Origin: Brevundimonas vesicularis NBRC 12165
GTDB taxonomy: Bacteria > Pseudomonadota > Alphaproteobacteria > Caulobacterales > Caulobacteraceae
Direction: 5' to 3'
DNA: 64,000 bases
NCBI RefSeq assembly: GCF_001592205.1
Contig: NZ_BCWM01000001.1
Span: 186,001 to 250,000 of the forward strand
The stretch's first letter is position 1. Each line of letters starts with the position of its first letter. Made by a program: the position numbers and the translations under genes. The notes under the pieces were generated by a model that made no database searches, was not told the DNA's origin, and was given only the letters and a program-made list of their open reading frames with translations. Shown here piece after piece: positions 14,317 to 50,464 of this stretch.

Positions 14317-14331
14317 GTTCCTACATTGTTC
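14317..14331 (+). promoter_or_regulatory. LexA (SOS) box of uvrA
   Basis: GTTCCTACATTGTTC is an exact match to the alphaproteobacterial LexA operator GTTC-N7-GTTC. It lies 80 bases before the uvrA ATG at 14412 and in the only gap before this gene. uvrA is a standard SOS gene in Caulobacterales, which makes this assignment strong. The same motif recurs at 24767-24781. Confidence 0.88.
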
Positions 14332-14411: not shown

Positions 14412-17357
14412 ATGACCGAAAAGCATAACTTCATCCGCGTTCGCGGCGCCCGCGAGCATAACCTCAAGGGCGTGGATCTCGACATTCCGCGTGAACAGCT
14501 GGTGGTGATGACCGGCCTGTCGGGGTCTGGCAAATCCTCGCTGGCATTCGACACTATCTATGCCGAAGGCCAGCGGCGTTATGTCGAGAGCCTGTCGGCC
14601 TATGCCCGCCAGTTCCTGGAGCTGATGGGCAAGCCGGACGTGGATCTGATCGAAGGCCTGTCCCCGGCCATCTCCATCGAACAGAAGACAACGTCCAAGA
14701 ACCCGCGCTCGACCGTCGGTACGGTGACGGAAATTCACGACTATATGCGCCTGCTGTGGGCGCGGGTCGGCGTGCCCTATTCGCCGGCGACCGGCCTGCC
14801 CATTGAGAGCCAGACCGTCAGCCAGATGATCGACAAGCTGGTCGCCCTGCCCGATGGTGAGCGCATCCTGCTGCTCGCCCCCGTCGTTCGCGGCCGTAAG
14901 GGCGAGTACAGGAAGGAAATCGCCGAGTGGCAGCGGCAGGGCTTCCAGCGCCTGAAGATCGACGGCCAGTTCTATCCGATCGACGAAGCGCCCACGCTGG
15001 ACAAGAAGTTCAAGCACGACATCGACATCGTCGTGGACCGGATCGTCACCAAGCCGGATCAGGAAGCGCGCTACGCCGACAGCCTACAGACGGCGCTGGG
15101 TCTGGCCGACGGCATCGCCAATGCCGAATGGGCCTCGACGGCGGAAGGTGAAACCGCGCCGCGCTCCATCCTGTTTTCCGAACGATTCGCATGCCCGGTG
15201 TCGGGTTTCACGATCAGCGAGATAGAGCCGCGTCTGTTCTCGTTCAACAACCCCTTCGGCGCCTGCCCGGTCTGCGACGGCTTGGGTGTCAAGCTGGCAT
15301 TTGACGCCGATCTGGTGATCCCGGACCGCGACAAGACACTGCACAAGGGTGCCGTTGCGCCATGGGCGCGTGGGCCGTCGCCGCTTTACACCCAGACACT
15401 GCAGTCGCTCAGCCTCCACTATGGCTTCTCGATGGACAAGCCGTGGCGCGACCTGCCCGCCCAGGCGCACAAGGCCATCCTGCACGGCACGGGGTCGGAG
15501 AAGATCAAGTTCGTCTATGACGACAACGCCCGAAAATACGAGGTCTCCAAGCCGTTCGAAGGGGTGCTGCCGAACCTGGAACGCCGCTGGCGCGAGACCG
15601 ACAGCGCCTGGGTGCGCGAGGAACTGGCCCGCTATCAATCCGAGACGCCCTGCAACGCGTGTCACGGCAAGCGGCTGAAGCCCGAGGCCCTGGCGGTCAA
15701 GGTTGGCGGCGAGGACATCGCCGACATCTCCACCCTGTCCATCTCCAAGGCCTATCTGTGGTTCTCGACGCTGGAAGAGAACCTGACCGACAAGCAGATG
15801 GAGATCGCCCGGCGCATCCTGAAGGAAATCTGCGACCGGCTGCGATTCCTGAACAACGTCGGCCTGGATTATCTGAACCTGTCGCGATCCTCCGGCACTC
15901 TGTCGGGCGGCGAGAGCCAACGCATCCGCTTGGCGTCGCAAATCGGCTCGGGCCTCACCGGCGTCCTCTACGTGCTGGACGAGCCGTCCATCGGCCTCCA
16001 TCAACGCGACAACACCCGCCTGCTGGAAAGCCTGAAGGGGCTGCGCGATCTCGGCAACTCGGTCCTCGTGGTCGAGCATGACGAAGAAGCCATCCTGACC
16101 GCGGACTACGTCATCGACATGGGCCCGGCCGCCGGGGTTCATGGCGGCCAGGTCTGCGCCGAGGGCACGCCGGCCCAGGTCATGGCCAATCCCAAGTCCT
16201 TGACCGGCAAATACCTGACCGGCGAGCGCGAGATCGAAGTCCCCGCCGAGGGTCGCCGCCCCATCAACCGCAAGCGAATGCTGAAAATCAGCGGCGCCAG
16301 CGGCAACAATCTGAAGAGCGTCACCGGCGAAATCCCGGTCGGCGTCTTCACCTGCATCACCGGCGTCTCGGGCGGCGGCAAGTCCACTTTCACCATCGAG
16401 ACCCTGTACAAGGCCGCCGCGCGTCGCCTGAACAATGCCTCGGAGGCCCCTGCCCCCTTCGATCGGATCGAAGGCCTGGAGCATTTCGACAAGGTCATCG
16501 ACATCGACCAGTCGCCCATCGGCCGCACCCCGCGCTCGAACCCCGCGACCTATACCGGCGCCTTCGGGCCTATCCGCGACTGGTACGCCGGCCTGCCGGA
16601 ATCCAAGGCGCGCGGCTATGGCCCCGGGCGGTTCAGCTTCAACGTCAAGGGCGGGCGTTGCGAAGCCTGCCAAGGCGACGGCGTCATCAAGATCGAGATG
16701 CACTTCCTGCCGGACGTCTATGTCACCTGCGACGTCTGCAAGGGCAAACGCTACAATCGCGAGACGCTGGAGATCGTGTTCAAGGGCAAGTCCATTTCGG
16801 ACGTGCTGGACATGACGGTCGAGGAGGCGGCGACCTTCTTCAAGGCCGTGCCGCCGATCCGCGACAAGATGCTGACGCTTGAACGCGTGGGCCTGGGCTA
16901 CGTCAAGGTTGGCCAGCCCGCCACTACCCTGTCAGGCGGCGAGGCCCAGCGGGTCAAACTGTCCAAGGAGCTGTCCAAGCGCGCCACCGGCCGCACCCTG
17001 TACATCCTCGACGAGCCGACCACCGGCCTGCATTTCGAGGATACGCGCAAGCTGCTGGAAGTGCTGCAGGAACTGGTCGAGGCCGGGAACACCATCGTGG
17101 TGATCGAGCACAACCTCGATGTCATCAAGGTCGCCGACTATCTGCTCGACTTCGGTCCCGAGGGCGGCGACGGCGGCGGCGAGATCGTCGCTGTGGGCAC
17201 GCCCGAACAGGTCGCGGACAACAAGGCCAGTTGGACCGGCAAATACCTCAAGGAGGTGCTGGATCGGCACGAGGACCGCCGCAAGGCGCGTGTGGCGGCC
17301 TTGGGCGGGTCCGTCGATGCTCCGGCCAAAAAGAAAAGGGTGAAGGCGTCGGCCTGA
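14412..17357 (+). CDS. uvrA: Excinuclease ABC subunit A
   Basis: A 981-residue nucleotide excision repair damage-recognition ATPase that partners UvrB and UvrC. It has two ABC halves: Walker [10 protein letters not shown] near 35 and GVSGGGKST near 650, two signature LSGGE motifs and two LDEPS/LDEPT Walker B motifs. The zinc-binding CPVC...CNAC and CEAC...CDVC modules are present. The C-terminal tail is Lys-rich. Length is in the normal range of UvrA. It is preceded by a perfect LexA box, so it should be SOS-inducible. Confidence 0.98.
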
Positions 17358-22072: not shown

Positions 22073-23527
22073 TCACCTCATACGACGCTGCACGGCCGTC
22101 AGATCCTCAATGAACAACCGTCTCGCCTCGGACTTCGCCGCCTCGTCCGGCAGACGCAGCAGATAGGAGGGGTGGACCGTCAGTACGGCGGTCGATCCGT
22201 CGCTCAGGTCGATCGGCGCGCCGCGTTCCTGCATCACAGCCGGCTTGCGACCCAGCAACGCCAAACTCGCCGTCGCCCCCAGGGCCAGCACGACCTGCGG
22301 CTTGATCAACCTTCGCTCCGAGTCCAGCCACCAGCGGCAGGCCTGAACCTCGCCCGCATTCGGCGTCTTGTGCAGGCGACGTTTGCCGCGCGGCTCGTGT
22401 TTGAAATGTTTGACCGCGTTGGTGACATAGACGTCGGATCGATCAATGCCGGCCTCGGCCAAGGCGGCGTTCAGCACCTGTCCCGCCGGCCCGATGAAGG
22501 CGCGGCCTGCCAGATCCTCCTGATCGCCCGGCTGTTCGCCGACGATCATCAGACGCGCCGACTTCGGCCCCTCCCCGCACACGCCCTGCGTCGCGTCGCG
22601 GTAAAGCGGGCAACGGCGACACGCCTGAACGCCGCTGGCGACGTCGTCAAGATTTTGAGGCACGGCCTCGGCGTCGGGACGCGCCAAATGCACGTCTGGC
22701 GCGACGGCGCGCGCGAAACGCGAATTGGGCTGAGGCGACGGCGTAGCGACCATGGTCTCGGTCCGAACCGACGAGGCCACGACCAGTTCCGGGATCAGGG
22801 CGGCTTCCGGCAGGTTCTTCCAATAGGACTTGGCCATCTCACCCTGCATCGTCTTCACCTTGAGCCGCGCAGGATTGAAGGTCGAGGCGTAGTAAGTCTT
22901 CCAGAAATCCTCGATCTCGTCCTCGGCGGGCGCCAGGTCGCGGGTCGCTGGCCGCCCGAACCGCAGGGCTTCTCCATCCCAGACGGCCGAACCATCCGGC
23001 GTCAGGATCGACCAGCGCATAGTCGTGAACCGCCGTTGGAAAAACGGCGCGGTCTTCTCCAGAACCCGATGCGGCGGCTCGAACCACGCCACCCAGGCCT
23101 CGCCCAGATCGTCATGCACCTGGCGAAAGCGAACGAAGGCCTTCATCTTGTGCGAAGCCCGGCTGACGTTCTTGACCCGCTCCAGCGCGTCGGCGACGTC
23201 CCGGTCTGAAATGACCTTGATCAGGTCCGGCTCATCCTTCAGCCGCCACAGCAGCCGGTACATCAGATCGAAACGGTCAGCGGATCGATGCAGGATCAGG
23301 TTCTGGGCTAGGTCCACGAACTCTTTCGGGACGTTGAAAGCTCTGCGCTCATCCGGCGTCGGCGACGCCTCTTCGGCAATCGGCTGATCGAAAAGCCCGC
23401 CCTGTTCCATCGTCCCCGCCACGACGAACCGCGCCGCCGCAGGCTCCACACCCGCCAATCGAAACGCGCGCGCCGCTTTCCGCCAGCCGTCGAAGTCGGT
23501 CTCACCGTCCAGCGTCGCCACCGCCAT
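22073..23527 (-). CDS. udgX: UdgX-type uracil-DNA glycosylase fused to DUF4130 domain
   Basis: A 484-residue fusion. The N-terminal part (about 1-260) matches DUF4130 (TIGR03915-type). The C-terminal part is a UdgX uracil-DNA glycosylase: GEQPGDQEDLAGRAFIGPAG, the R-loop KRRLH (His at about 386), and HPSYLLR. UdgX uses the loop His to form a covalent bond with the uracil-containing abasic site, studied first in mycobacteria with KRRIH. C-x2-C (ACRRCP) and VCGEG cysteines suit the family's iron-sulfur cluster. Its ATG overlaps the stop of the radical SAM gene (TGATG), so the two are co-translated, and a LexA box precedes the pair. Confidence 0.92.
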   Translation of the reverse strand: MAVATLDGETDFDGWRKAARAFRLAGVEPAAARFVVAGTMEQGGLFDQPIAEEASPTPDERRAFNVPKEFVDLAQNLILHRSADRFDLMYRLLWRLKDEPDLIKVISDRDVADALERVKNVSRASHKMKAFVRFRQVHDDLGEAWVAWFEPPHRVLEKTAPFFQRRFTTMRWSILTPDGSAVWDGEALRFGRPATRDLAPAEDEIEDFWKTYYASTFNPARLKVKTMQGEMAKSYWKNLPEAALIPELVVASSVRTETMVATPSPQPNSRFARAVAPDVHLARPDAEAVPQNLDDVASGVQACRRCPLYRDATQGVCGEGPKSARLMIVGEQPGDQEDLAGRAFIGPAGQVLNAALAEAGIDRSDVYVTNAVKHFKHEPRGKRRLHKTPNAGEVQACRWWLDSERRLIKPQVVLALGATASLALLGRKPAVMQERGAPIDLSDGSTAVLTVHPSYLLRLPDEAAKSEARRLFIEDLTAVQRRMR

Positions 23528-24765
23528 CAGAACAGGCTCAACTGCTCGGGCGTTCGGCTGGTCACGCGCGCCTTGAGGTCCGCCGCGTCCGTCAGACCGC
23601 CTGGCGTCCAGTCCAGCGCCGTAATGAAGGGCCGGATCTTCGCCACCGATCGCGTCAGCCGTCCGACATCCTCCAGCCGCAGGGTCCGATAGCGGCGCAC
23701 CGAGACGATCCGGTCCACCGCCTTCACGCCCAGCCCCGGCACCCGCAGCAGCATCTCTCGCGGCGCACGGTTCACATCGACGGGAAATTGCTCGCGCTTG
23801 TTCAGCGCCCAAGCCAGTTTGGGGTCGACCGCCAGATCGAGCATGCCATTCGATGCCCCCTCGCCGATCTCCGGCGCGGAGAAGCCATAGAACCGCATCA
23901 GCCAATCGGCCTGATACAGCCGATGCTCGCGCATCAACGGCGGCTTGGACAACGGCAGGATCGAACTGGAGTCCGGGATCGGGCTGAACGCCGAATAATA
24001 GACGCGGCGCAGGCCGTAACCACCGTAGAGCGAGGCGCTGCGATCCAGGATTTCCGTATCCGGCGCGCCGTCGGCGCCGATGATCAACTGCGTGCTCTGG
24101 CCGCCCGGCGCGAACTTCGGCGGTTTGATCTTTTCACGTTTGGCCGGCTTGGCCGCCTCGACGCCAAGGCGCACCTGGCTCATCGCCTTCTTGATGACCC
24201 CAACATCCTTTTGCGGCGCCAGTCGCGCCAGCGCCTCGTCGCGCGGAAGCTCGATATTGGCTGACAGGCGGTCGGCATACAGTCCCGCCATTTCCACCAG
24301 CTTCGGATCCGCCTCCGGGATCAGCTTCAGATGAATGTAGCCCCGAAAATCGTGGACTTCCCGCAACGTCTTGGCCACCAGGACCAGCTGCTCCATCGTA
24401 TAGTCGCCGGATCGAATGATGCCCGACGACAGGAACAGACCCTCGATATAGTTGCGCTTGTAGAAGTTGAGCGTCAGGTCGACCACCTCGTCGACATCGA
24501 AGCGCGCGCGCTCCACGTTCGACGACACGCGATTGATGCAATAGGCGCAGTCGTAGATGCAGAAGTTGGTCAGCAAGATCTTGAGCAGACTGATGCATCG
24601 ACCGTCCGGCGTATAGGCATGACAGATGCCCATGCCTTCGGTCGAGCCAATACCCTTGCCGCCAACAGAGTTTCGTTTCGACGTTCCGGACGACGAACAC
24701 GAGGCGTCATACTTGGCGGCGTCAGCCAGAACGGAGAGTTTTCGACGCAGATCGAGACGGGCCAT
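23527..24765 (-). CDS. Radical SAM DNA modification/repair protein (TIGR03916 type)
   Basis: A 412-residue radical SAM enzyme. The 4Fe-4S triad is C69-x3-C73-x2-C76 (NFCIYDCAYC). A helix-hairpin-helix motif follows near the C-terminus (LLRVPGLGVKAVDRIVSVRR), implying DNA binding. It matches the family described as a putative DNA modification/repair radical SAM protein that is almost always found beside UdgX/DUF4130 genes. The reaction is unproven. It opens the operon, with a perfect LexA operator ending two bases before the ATG, so it is expected to be repressed directly by LexA. Confidence 0.9.
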   Translation of the reverse strand: MARLDLRRKLSVLADAAKYDASCSSSGTSKRNSVGGKGIGSTEGMGICHAYTPDGRCISLLKILLTNFCIYDCAYCINRVSSNVERARFDVDEVVDLTLNFYKRNYIEGLFLSSGIIRSGDYTMEQLVLVAKTLREVHDFRGYIHLKLIPEADPKLVEMAGLYADRLSANIELPRDEALARLAPQKDVGVIKKAMSQVRLGVEAAKPAKREKIKPPKFAPGGQSTQLIIGADGAPDTEILDRSASLYGGYGLRRVYYSAFSPIPDSSSILPLSKPPLMREHRLYQADWLMRFYGFSAPEIGEGASNGMLDLAVDPKLAWALNKREQFPVDVNRAPREMLLRVPGLGVKAVDRIVSVRRYRTLRLEDVGRLTRSVAKIRPFITALDWTPGGLTDAADLKARVTSRTPEQLSLF

Positions 24766-24766
24766 C

Positions 24767-24781
24767 GTTCATGATACGTTC
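24767..24781 (-). promoter_or_regulatory. LexA (SOS) box of the radical SAM-udgX operon
   Basis: On the plus strand GTTCATGATACGTTC matches GTTC-N7-GTTC exactly, and the following CAGAAC adds a palindromic GTTCCAGAAC (24778-24787). It ends only two bases before the start codon at 24765 (minus strand), so LexA here would overlap the ribosome site and probably the transcription start. The same motif controls uvrA at 14317-14331. Confidence 0.88.
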
Positions 24782-24831
24782 CAGAACGATGTTTGGTCCA
24801 GCGTTGCCGTTTTCTTTTTTGAAACGACGAC

Positions 24832-49828: not shown

Positions 49829-50464
49829 ATGCCGCTATCCCACACCAAGCTTTGGAAGGCCGTCGACACCTTGGCTCGGCGTGAAGGGCTGACGCCGTCG
49901 GGCTTGGCGCGACGGGCCGGTCTGGATGCGACGAGTTTCAATCCGTCAAAACGCTTCGGGCCGGGTGATCCGCCGCGTCCGCGCTGGCCCTCGACCGAGA
50001 GCATGACGCTGGTGCTTCAGGCGACAGGCCTGTCGCTTTCGGAGTTTGCGGTGTTGGCCGAAGACGCACCGGAGGCGCCGACCAGCGTGCCCTTGCTGGG
50101 TCTGGCCAAGGCGGGTCAGGACGGCTTCTTCGACGACGCTGGCCTGCCGGTCGGCGAAGGCTGGGATCAGACCGACCTGCCGCGCGCCAAGGACACCCTG
50201 TTCAGCCTTCAGATCACTGGCGATTCGATGTCGCCCCTCTATCGCGAAGGCGATCGCGTCATCGTGGATCAGGAAGCGACGCAGGTGCGGCGGGGAGACC
50301 GCGTCGTCGCCCGCCTGACCAGCGGAGAAACCGTGGCCAAGGAGGTTACCAGCCTGACCAGCCGCGCCGTCACCTTGGCCTCAATCAATCCCGACTACCC
50401 CCCAAGGATCGTGCCCCGACGCGAGATCGAATGGATGGCCCGCATCCTCTGGGTCAGCCAGTAG
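49829..50464 (+). CDS. LexA-like S24 peptidase-family repressor
   Basis: A 211-residue transcription regulator. An N-terminal helix-turn-helix (about 5-75, TPSGLARRAGLDATSF) is followed by a LexA-type S24 domain. The likely self-cleavage bond is Ala95-Gly96 (LAKAGQDG), the nucleophile Ser133 (TGDSMSP) and the general base Lys171 (VAKEV). The spacing agrees with LexA and lambda CI repressors. It should cleave itself when stimulated by RecA filaments, but cofactor and targets are unknown. It is not the main LexA (which has a different N-terminus), so a second SOS-type or stress switch is possible. A bidirectional terminator follows. Confidence 0.87.
   Translation: MPLSHTKLWKAVDTLARREGLTPSGLARRAGLDATSFNPSKRFGPGDPPRPRWPSTESMTLVLQATGLSLSEFAVLAEDAPEAPTSVPLLGLAKAGQDGFFDDAGLPVGEGWDQTDLPRAKDTLFSLQITGDSMSPLYREGDRVIVDQEATQVRRGDRVVARLTSGETVAKEVTSLTSRAVTLASINPDYPPRIVPRREIEWMARILWVSQ

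Follow-up and report, generated by a model that had tools for sequence, protein, structure and literature searches.

A radical SAM/DUF4130 operon with an optional UdgX domain under predicted LexA control in Brevundimonas vesicularis and other bacteria

SOS regulation of uracil-glycosylase-based repair has been reported in the Verrucomicrobia and, with reference to the work of da Rocha (2008) on Caulobacter crescentus, in the alphaproteobacteria, and the Bacteroidetes have since been added through an SOS-regulated COG1573-COG4277 operon (PMC8565304). LexA control has also been proposed for a similar gene pair in Clostridium (PMC3828012), and the DUF4130 domain has been linked to SplB-like radical S-adenosylmethionine (SAM) proteins and uracil glycosylases (PMC3765255). 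A LexA-regulated radical SAM protein is mentioned in two further papers, with no family stated in the portions available (PMC7739468, PMC9380542), and CC1333 is one of four genes of the uracil-DNA glycosylase (UDG) family listed for C. crescentus (PMC1839093). The present analysis concerns an operon of this type in a 64,000-nucleotide stretch of Brevundimonas vesicularis NBRC 12165 (contig NZ_BCWM01000001.1, positions 186,001 to 250,000; hereafter the window), in which a LexA box precedes a radical SAM gene and a second gene encoding DUF4130 fused to UdgX. We take COG4277 to be the family of this radical SAM protein (TIGR03916).

An earlier sequence-only reading of the same DNA had proposed, as its central claim, that the operon is coupled to the SOS response. 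In view of the earlier reports (PMC8565304), this claim was already known: operons of this kind are on record as SOS-controlled in the alphaproteobacteria, the Verrucomicrobia and the Bacteroidetes. The available portions of PMC4211646, PMC6120978, PMC13384398, PMC10776899 and PMC5554334 make no mention of the operon, and literature searches by locus tag returned nothing on it beyond the UDG list of PMC1839093. What is added here is the breadth of the control and the change of motif that accompanies it, a promoter with two operator registers and a predicted leaderless start, the connection to UdgX biochemistry, and the apparent dispensability of UdgX. The absence of these additions from print is claimed as far as the literature searches made.

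Conservation of the operator across relatives

The window carries an exact GTTC-N7-GTTC box upstream of the radical SAM gene, as the sequence-only reading had stated; the spacing of two bases that it gave between box and start codon has to be corrected to a single base (24766). Exact boxes number three in the window against 1.85 expected, and three or more were obtained in 28 of 100 shuffles. Since this count lies near chance, the promoters of orthologous operons were examined, and it is their conservation that decides. The other two exact boxes in the window fall within a FlgL-like gene and 80 bases 5' of uvrA, the lexA promoter of the same genome (LexA score, 181.5 bits) holds two boxes, and matches to the box number 125 genome-wide against 54 for the reversed pattern. 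The uvrA and lexA boxes thus provide two internal controls that fit an SOS reading of the motif. A second match to the LexA model in the window (approximately 50072-50431, forward strand; 28.6 bits) lies below the cut-off and might correspond to another S24-type repressor.

Promoters were counted as positive when an exact box lay no more than 120 bases from the radical SAM start codon. The Caulobacteraceae set comprised all 78 TIGR03916-positive genomes of 149, with the DNA of each taken, and the further sets comprised 61 other alphaproteobacterial genomes and 29 genomes from other classes of the phylum, all above the cut-off. A set of 80 named alphaproteobacterial loci includes Caulobacteraceae and may overlap in species with the others. 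Matches to TIGR03916 below the cut-off were excluded (16 of 41 genomes in the class sample and 15 of 99 in the phylum sample), a separate genus search (49 of 101 genomes above the cut-off) was kept out of the counts, and two loci that were read individually (L098 and L101) were included.

Conservation of the box ahead of orthologous operons, which the sequence-only reading had put forward as a check on its proposal, is extensive. The exact box is present in 75 of the 78 Caulobacteraceae promoters, the remaining three being one base off, and the gene-nearest box reads GAAC-N7-GAAC on the coding strand in all 75. It is likewise exact in 60 of the 61 other alphaproteobacterial genomes, the sole exception being a 1.5-megabase genome (L081) whose best LexA match falls below the cut-off, and in 78 of the 80 named loci, with two again one base off, for a total of 213 exact boxes in 219 loci across three sets that may share species. 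Tiles of equal size elsewhere in the same loci contain the box at background levels of 4/2127, 5/1604 and 23/4667. A scrambled control motif was exact in 0, 1 and 2 promoters of the three alphaproteobacterial sets, and scrambled motifs overall yielded between zero and two exact promoters per set.

Outside the alphaproteobacteria the operator changes. Among the 29 genomes from other classes, GTTC-N7-GTTC is never exact and is one base off in two, whereas the CTGT-N8-ACAG motif of the E. coli type occurs exactly in 19 and with one mismatch in five, against a background of 4 in 882 tiles of the same loci. Conversely, CTGT-N8-ACAG is exact in none of the alphaproteobacterial promoters (0/78, 0/61 and 0/80). 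The replacement of one box by the other indicates that SOS control outlasts the change of motif: judging from these promoters, a single operon type is held under SOS control through two unrelated operators and survives a switch in the LexA-binding motif. Direct LexA control, as put forward in the sequence-only reading, is therefore supported from two sides, the conservation of the alphaproteobacterial box and its E. coli-type replacement, and on this comparative basis we regard SOS control of the operon as nearly certain.

Several individual copies of the operon deserve mention. The betaproteobacterium Caballeronia has a plasmid copy with the box CTGTATAAATATACAG, and 158 plasmid records were found to contain the radical SAM gene. 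At three loci (L144, L145 and L157) the CTGT-N8-ACAG box overlaps the GTG start chosen by the script, the final G of the box being the G of GTG. None of five motifs tried was found within 160 bases in the copies from a record labelled as Acinetobacter phage, a Spirosoma plasmid and a Fusobacterium record. In a record with the Acinetobacter phage label (L287, CAKLQH020000003.1) the radical SAM gene lies beside glyS and glyQ on 240 kilobases of sequence, which looks like a bacterial chromosome rather than a phage.

Two operator registers on the predicted promoter

In the 75 exact Caulobacteraceae promoters the start of the box falls into two discrete registers, -15 to -20 (41 promoters) and -28 to -30 (34 promoters), and never between them. 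The spacer of the near-register box reads ATATCAT, GTATCAT, ATAGCAT or similar and holds the presumed -10 element. In the far register a TA lies two bases 3' of the box in all 34 promoters and CTTGAC-like bases lie 5' of it, the box filling what is, by sequence, the interval between the presumed -35 and -10 elements. The distance from the TA of the presumed -10 element to the ATG is 10–15 bases in the near register and 11–13 in the far register, with 12 the commonest value in both. Because this distance is alike in the two registers, the promoter appears to have stayed fixed while the operator shifted by some 10–12 bases. Furthermore, a -10 element so close to the ATG leads to the prediction that the transcript starts at or beside the start codon, and a leaderless mRNA is, with good though not compelling confidence, the expected product. 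When mapped on a radical SAM protein tree with midpoint rooting, the register changed at least three times, compared with at least 18 times for shuffled labels, and the near register was placed at the root.

The early SOS genes ccna_01391 and ccna_02355 have been described with the same box, GTTCttgttatGTTC (PMC12700426), and a leaderless primary transcription start site has been assigned to CCNA_01391 (PMC4287350). The string GTTCttgttatGTTC occurs exactly 5' of the radical SAM gene at one of the loci analysed here (L027, genus g6), and also at a Mesorhizobium locus (L219), so that it is not unique. Going by the tag numbering, CCNA_01391 may be this radical SAM gene; C. vibrioides is absent from the set of loci analysed, and the possible identity was not used as evidence.

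A radical SAM/DUF4130 core and a probable accessory role for UdgX

The two genes of the operon are joined by a TGATG overlap (23529-23525), as the sequence-only reading had described, in which the TGA of the radical SAM gene and the ATG of the second gene have one base in common. The closest named genome found, also of B. vesicularis (L181), shows the same intergenic gap of -1 and a radical SAM protein that is 100% identical. The product of the second gene scores above the cut-off for TIGR03915 (203.7 against 112.25 bits), for DUF4130 itself (PF13566; 128.7 against 27 bits) and for UdgX (TIGR03914; 315.6 against 189.95 bits). Its KRRLH loop aligns with the KRRIH of Mycobacterium smegmatis UdgX, motif A (GEQPG) is also present, and the top fold matches are crystal structures of UdgX, all of which bears out the UdgX assignment made from the sequence alone. 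In the M. smegmatis enzyme the loop histidine bonds to the abasic sugar (PMC10359453), and the UdgX half encoded here carries the corresponding predicted covalent-capture loop. In a structural model of the 484 residues the UdgX half matches the UdgX crystal structures and the glycosylase half fills the lists of fold matches; the predicted template-modelling score of 0.55 makes the relative arrangement of the DUF4130 and UdgX halves uncertain.

The presence of UdgX was surveyed in the 147 genomes whose second gene is complete; the tree excludes L101. A UdgX domain was found in 102 of them. Nearly all fused proteins have KRRLH or KRRIH as their loop, or a related sequence such as KIRLH; the histidine pattern used in the survey of promoters and loci missed two of these (L048 and L063), which have KRRIH and KRRLH. 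The remaining 45 have no working UdgX, and include a gene with a broken reading frame (L124) and one whose glycosylase half is degenerate (L143). This last locus retains the DUF4130 fusion and an exact LexA box and has lost motif A and the capture loop, as if UdgX were decaying in place. Forty of 42 UdgX-less genomes searched had no UdgX above the cut-off anywhere (the genomes of L116, L124 and L143 lay outside this search); the two with one were G181 and G407, and some match to the model was obtained in 33 of the 42. On the tree, the UdgX state changed at least 11 times, compared with at least 32 and on average 39 times for shuffled labels. The persistence of the box, the radical SAM gene and DUF4130 in the 45 genomes without a working UdgX identifies radical SAM and DUF4130 as the steadier core, to which UdgX is probably an accessory. 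The coupling of UdgX and radical SAM to the SOS response that the sequence-only reading had proposed thus holds as far as the box and the UdgX loop are concerned, and proves looser than it had suggested, given the 45 operons without a working UdgX and the 40 genomes without any above the cut-off; joint action of the two proteins would be a further step.

These data also bear on an alternative in which UdgX is the center of the operon, which would handle uracil in DNA, with radical SAM and DUF4130 serving UdgX, for instance by resolving its adducts or by making the base that it removes. The frequency of the fusion, which reaches 73 of the 80 named loci in addition to the 102 second genes counted above, and the retention of the capture loop with few variants agree with such a role, as does a model put forward in the literature, in which UdgX protects abasic sites and its adducts are resolved by RecA pathways (PMC10359453). 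It is nonetheless difficult to reconcile with the operons that lack a working UdgX and still have their LexA box, in genomes that mostly have no other UdgX above the cut-off, and we consider it unlikely.

Some further arrangements were seen around the second gene. On the tree, the UdgX-less operons of family f35 (L084, L088 and L089) cluster with those of the Caulobacteraceae genus g14 (L001–L017), which suggests horizontal transfer. Twelve loci have a gap of more than 250 bases between the two genes, and the intervening genes were classified for two of them. In one metagenome-assembled genome (MAG; L201) the radical SAM gene and the DUF4130-UdgX gene flank a gene with a hemerythrin domain (PF01814, 51.8 bits), and gaps similar in size to this one separate the two genes in several Sphingomonadales loci. 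In a Fulvimarina MAG (L187) the gap holds a gene whose product has a cytidine/deoxycytidylate deaminase domain (PF00383, 44 bits).

The radical SAM protein scores 550 bits against a cut-off of 343.5 for TIGR03916 and falls just short of the cut-off for PF04055 (28.4 against 29.5 bits); its CX3CX2C motif and its fold matches place it in the radical SAM superfamily. Comparison of 47 diverse radical SAM sequences shows six invariant cysteines, the three of CX3CX2C (residues 69, 73 and 76) and three more at residues 23, 48 and 57, which hint at a possible second iron-sulfur cluster. The predicted model has a mean predicted local distance difference test score of 80.5 and is poor over residues 1–80. 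Its best fold matches are tied between lipoyl synthase (Z 15.5, root-mean-square deviation 3.4 over 230 residues) and HydE (Z 15.0, 2.8 over 214 residues), and the best sequence match in the PDB (E 0.04) is limited to the helix-hairpin-helix end. A second alternative, in which a radical SAM protein resembling spore photoproduct lyase directly reverses one photo- or radical lesion with DUF4130 as a helper, finds a basis in the CX3CX2C motif and in the account of Aravind and colleagues, who call the radical SAM proteins of this association SplB-like (PMC3765255). The fold matches listed are lipoyl synthase, HydE and others, with spore photoproduct lyase among neither the sequence nor the fold matches listed, an absence that excludes nothing; the three extra invariant cysteines also fit this alternative poorly, and we judge it quite improbable. 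Any particular chemistry assigned to the core is, more generally, doubtful.

Table 1. Features of the operon and of the uvrA locus in the window (positions are those of the 64,000-nucleotide stretch).
Feature	Position	Strand	Remarks
Radical SAM gene	24765-23527	-	412 residues; TIGR03916 (rSAM_link_UDG); CX3CX2C at residues 69-76
Start codon of radical SAM gene	24765-24763	-	
Helix-hairpin-helix-like stretch of radical SAM protein			approximately residues 327-357
Second gene, DUF4130 (TIGR03915)-UdgX (TIGR03914) fusion	23527-22073	-	484 residues
DUF4130 part	22802-23527	-	approximately residues 1-242
UdgX part	22091-22657	-	approximately residues 291-479
KRRLH loop	22370-22384	-	residues 382-386; by alignment with M. 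smegmatis UdgX
LexA box	24767-24781	+	GTTCATGATACGTTC; coding strand reads GAACGTATCATGAAC; exact GTTC-N7-GTTC
Presumed -10 element, TATCAT	24771-24776	-	within the LexA box; predicted from sequence and comparative pattern
Tentative -35 element, TGGACC	24795-24800	-	18 bases 5' of the presumed -10 element; weak, spacing varies among close relatives
uvrA	14412-17357	+	NF001503, 1576 bits
uvrA LexA box	14317-14331		GTTCCTACATTGTTC; exact; 80 bases upstream of uvrA

A proposed mechanism and its relation to known systems

The explanation that we favor, and consider probable as a whole, is that of a LexA-repressed SOS repair operon with a radical SAM/DUF4130 core and an add-on UdgX, expressed from a probably leaderless mRNA. 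In this strain, LexA bound to its box would cover the presumed -10 region and block a promoter that starts at or beside the ATG. Upon DNA damage, RecA would trigger the self-cleavage of LexA and free the box, and a probably leaderless mRNA would then be made for the two overlapping genes. The radical SAM and DUF4130 core would probably act on damaged or misincorporated DNA nucleotides, possibly as a common substrate, and the UdgX add-on, present in most lineages though not in all, would remove uracil, remain bonded to the abasic sugar and protect the site until RecA-dependent repair takes place. The weakest alternative, a coincidental box in front of genes expressed with the upstream flagellar genes, can point to a box frequency in the window that is about as expected, and in itself compatible with chance, and to a FlgL-like gene whose end lies 66 bases upstream of the start codon, yet it is rejected by the near-universal exact box in the alphaproteobacterial loci and the different LexA motif in other classes, which leave it scarcely credible.

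A fuller version of the favored explanation can be formulated, in which radical SAM and DUF4130 constitute an uncharacterized repair pair kept under SOS control through the change of LexA box, UdgX is a removable suicide module attached to DUF4130 to cap what remains after the pair has acted, and the Caulobacteraceae operator has made at least three shifts of approximately one helical turn (10–12 bases) with control maintained, while the leaderless promoter stayed fixed. This version is offered as tentative.

Several observations weigh against the LexA-repressed repair operon. The motif alone is not significant within the window, and the operon is patchily distributed: TIGR03916 exceeds its cut-off in 78 of the 149 Caulobacteraceae, and in the class and phylum samples in 25 of 385 and 84 of 398 genomes, respectively. 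The root state of UdgX on the tree is ambiguous, so that gains and losses are not separable, and no DUF4130 was detected in the DNA retrieved for 2/78, 2/61, 0/29 and 2/80 loci, partly at DNA ends. Lastly, no known LexA box precedes the operon in five of the 29 genomes from other classes, two of them with LexA matches below the cut-off (G591 and G846) and three, all of family f196, with LexA above it. The lexA promoters of family f196 read TTAGTAGTAATACTACTAA, which we take to be the Xanthomonas LexA motif. In the operon of these genomes (L135, L136 and L137) a palindrome, TCTCAT-N3-ATGAGA, lies 5' of the radical SAM gene, and looser copies of it lie approximately 120 bases 5' of uvrA in both f196 genomes searched (L305 and L308). 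This palindrome differs from the motif of the f196 lexA promoters and may represent a second damage-related operator.

The cellular role of UdgX is described as "largely unknown" in a 2023 structural study, in whose text the words SOS and operon do not occur (PMC10359453), and no paper containing both "UdgX" and "radical SAM" was found in the library searched. Joining UdgX biochemistry with the SOS operon brings the role of UdgX within reach of a direct test, and an enzyme pair under apparent SOS control in several bacterial classes is a worthwhile target for its chemistry.

Compared with known systems, the operon resembles the COG4277-COG1573 operon in comprising two genes, one of the uracil-glycosylase family, under LexA; the partner gene is treated there as ordinary uracil repair by base excision (PMC8565304), whereas here it encodes UdgX and is optional. 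In the portions of that paper available, promoter registers are not mentioned. The likeness to CAC3343-CAC3344 of Clostridium acetobutylicum, a Firmicute, is one of published description. Lipoyl synthase and HydE, to which the radical SAM model is closest in fold, share 14–17% identity with it and give no sign of a common reaction; the protein described here has in addition a helix-hairpin-helix-like end. M. smegmatis UdgX, on the other hand, is alike in sequence (E 4.2e-53), in fold (Z ~31) and in its capture loop, and differs in being a stand-alone domain of 229 residues, whereas in the Brevundimonas operon UdgX is fused behind DUF4130.

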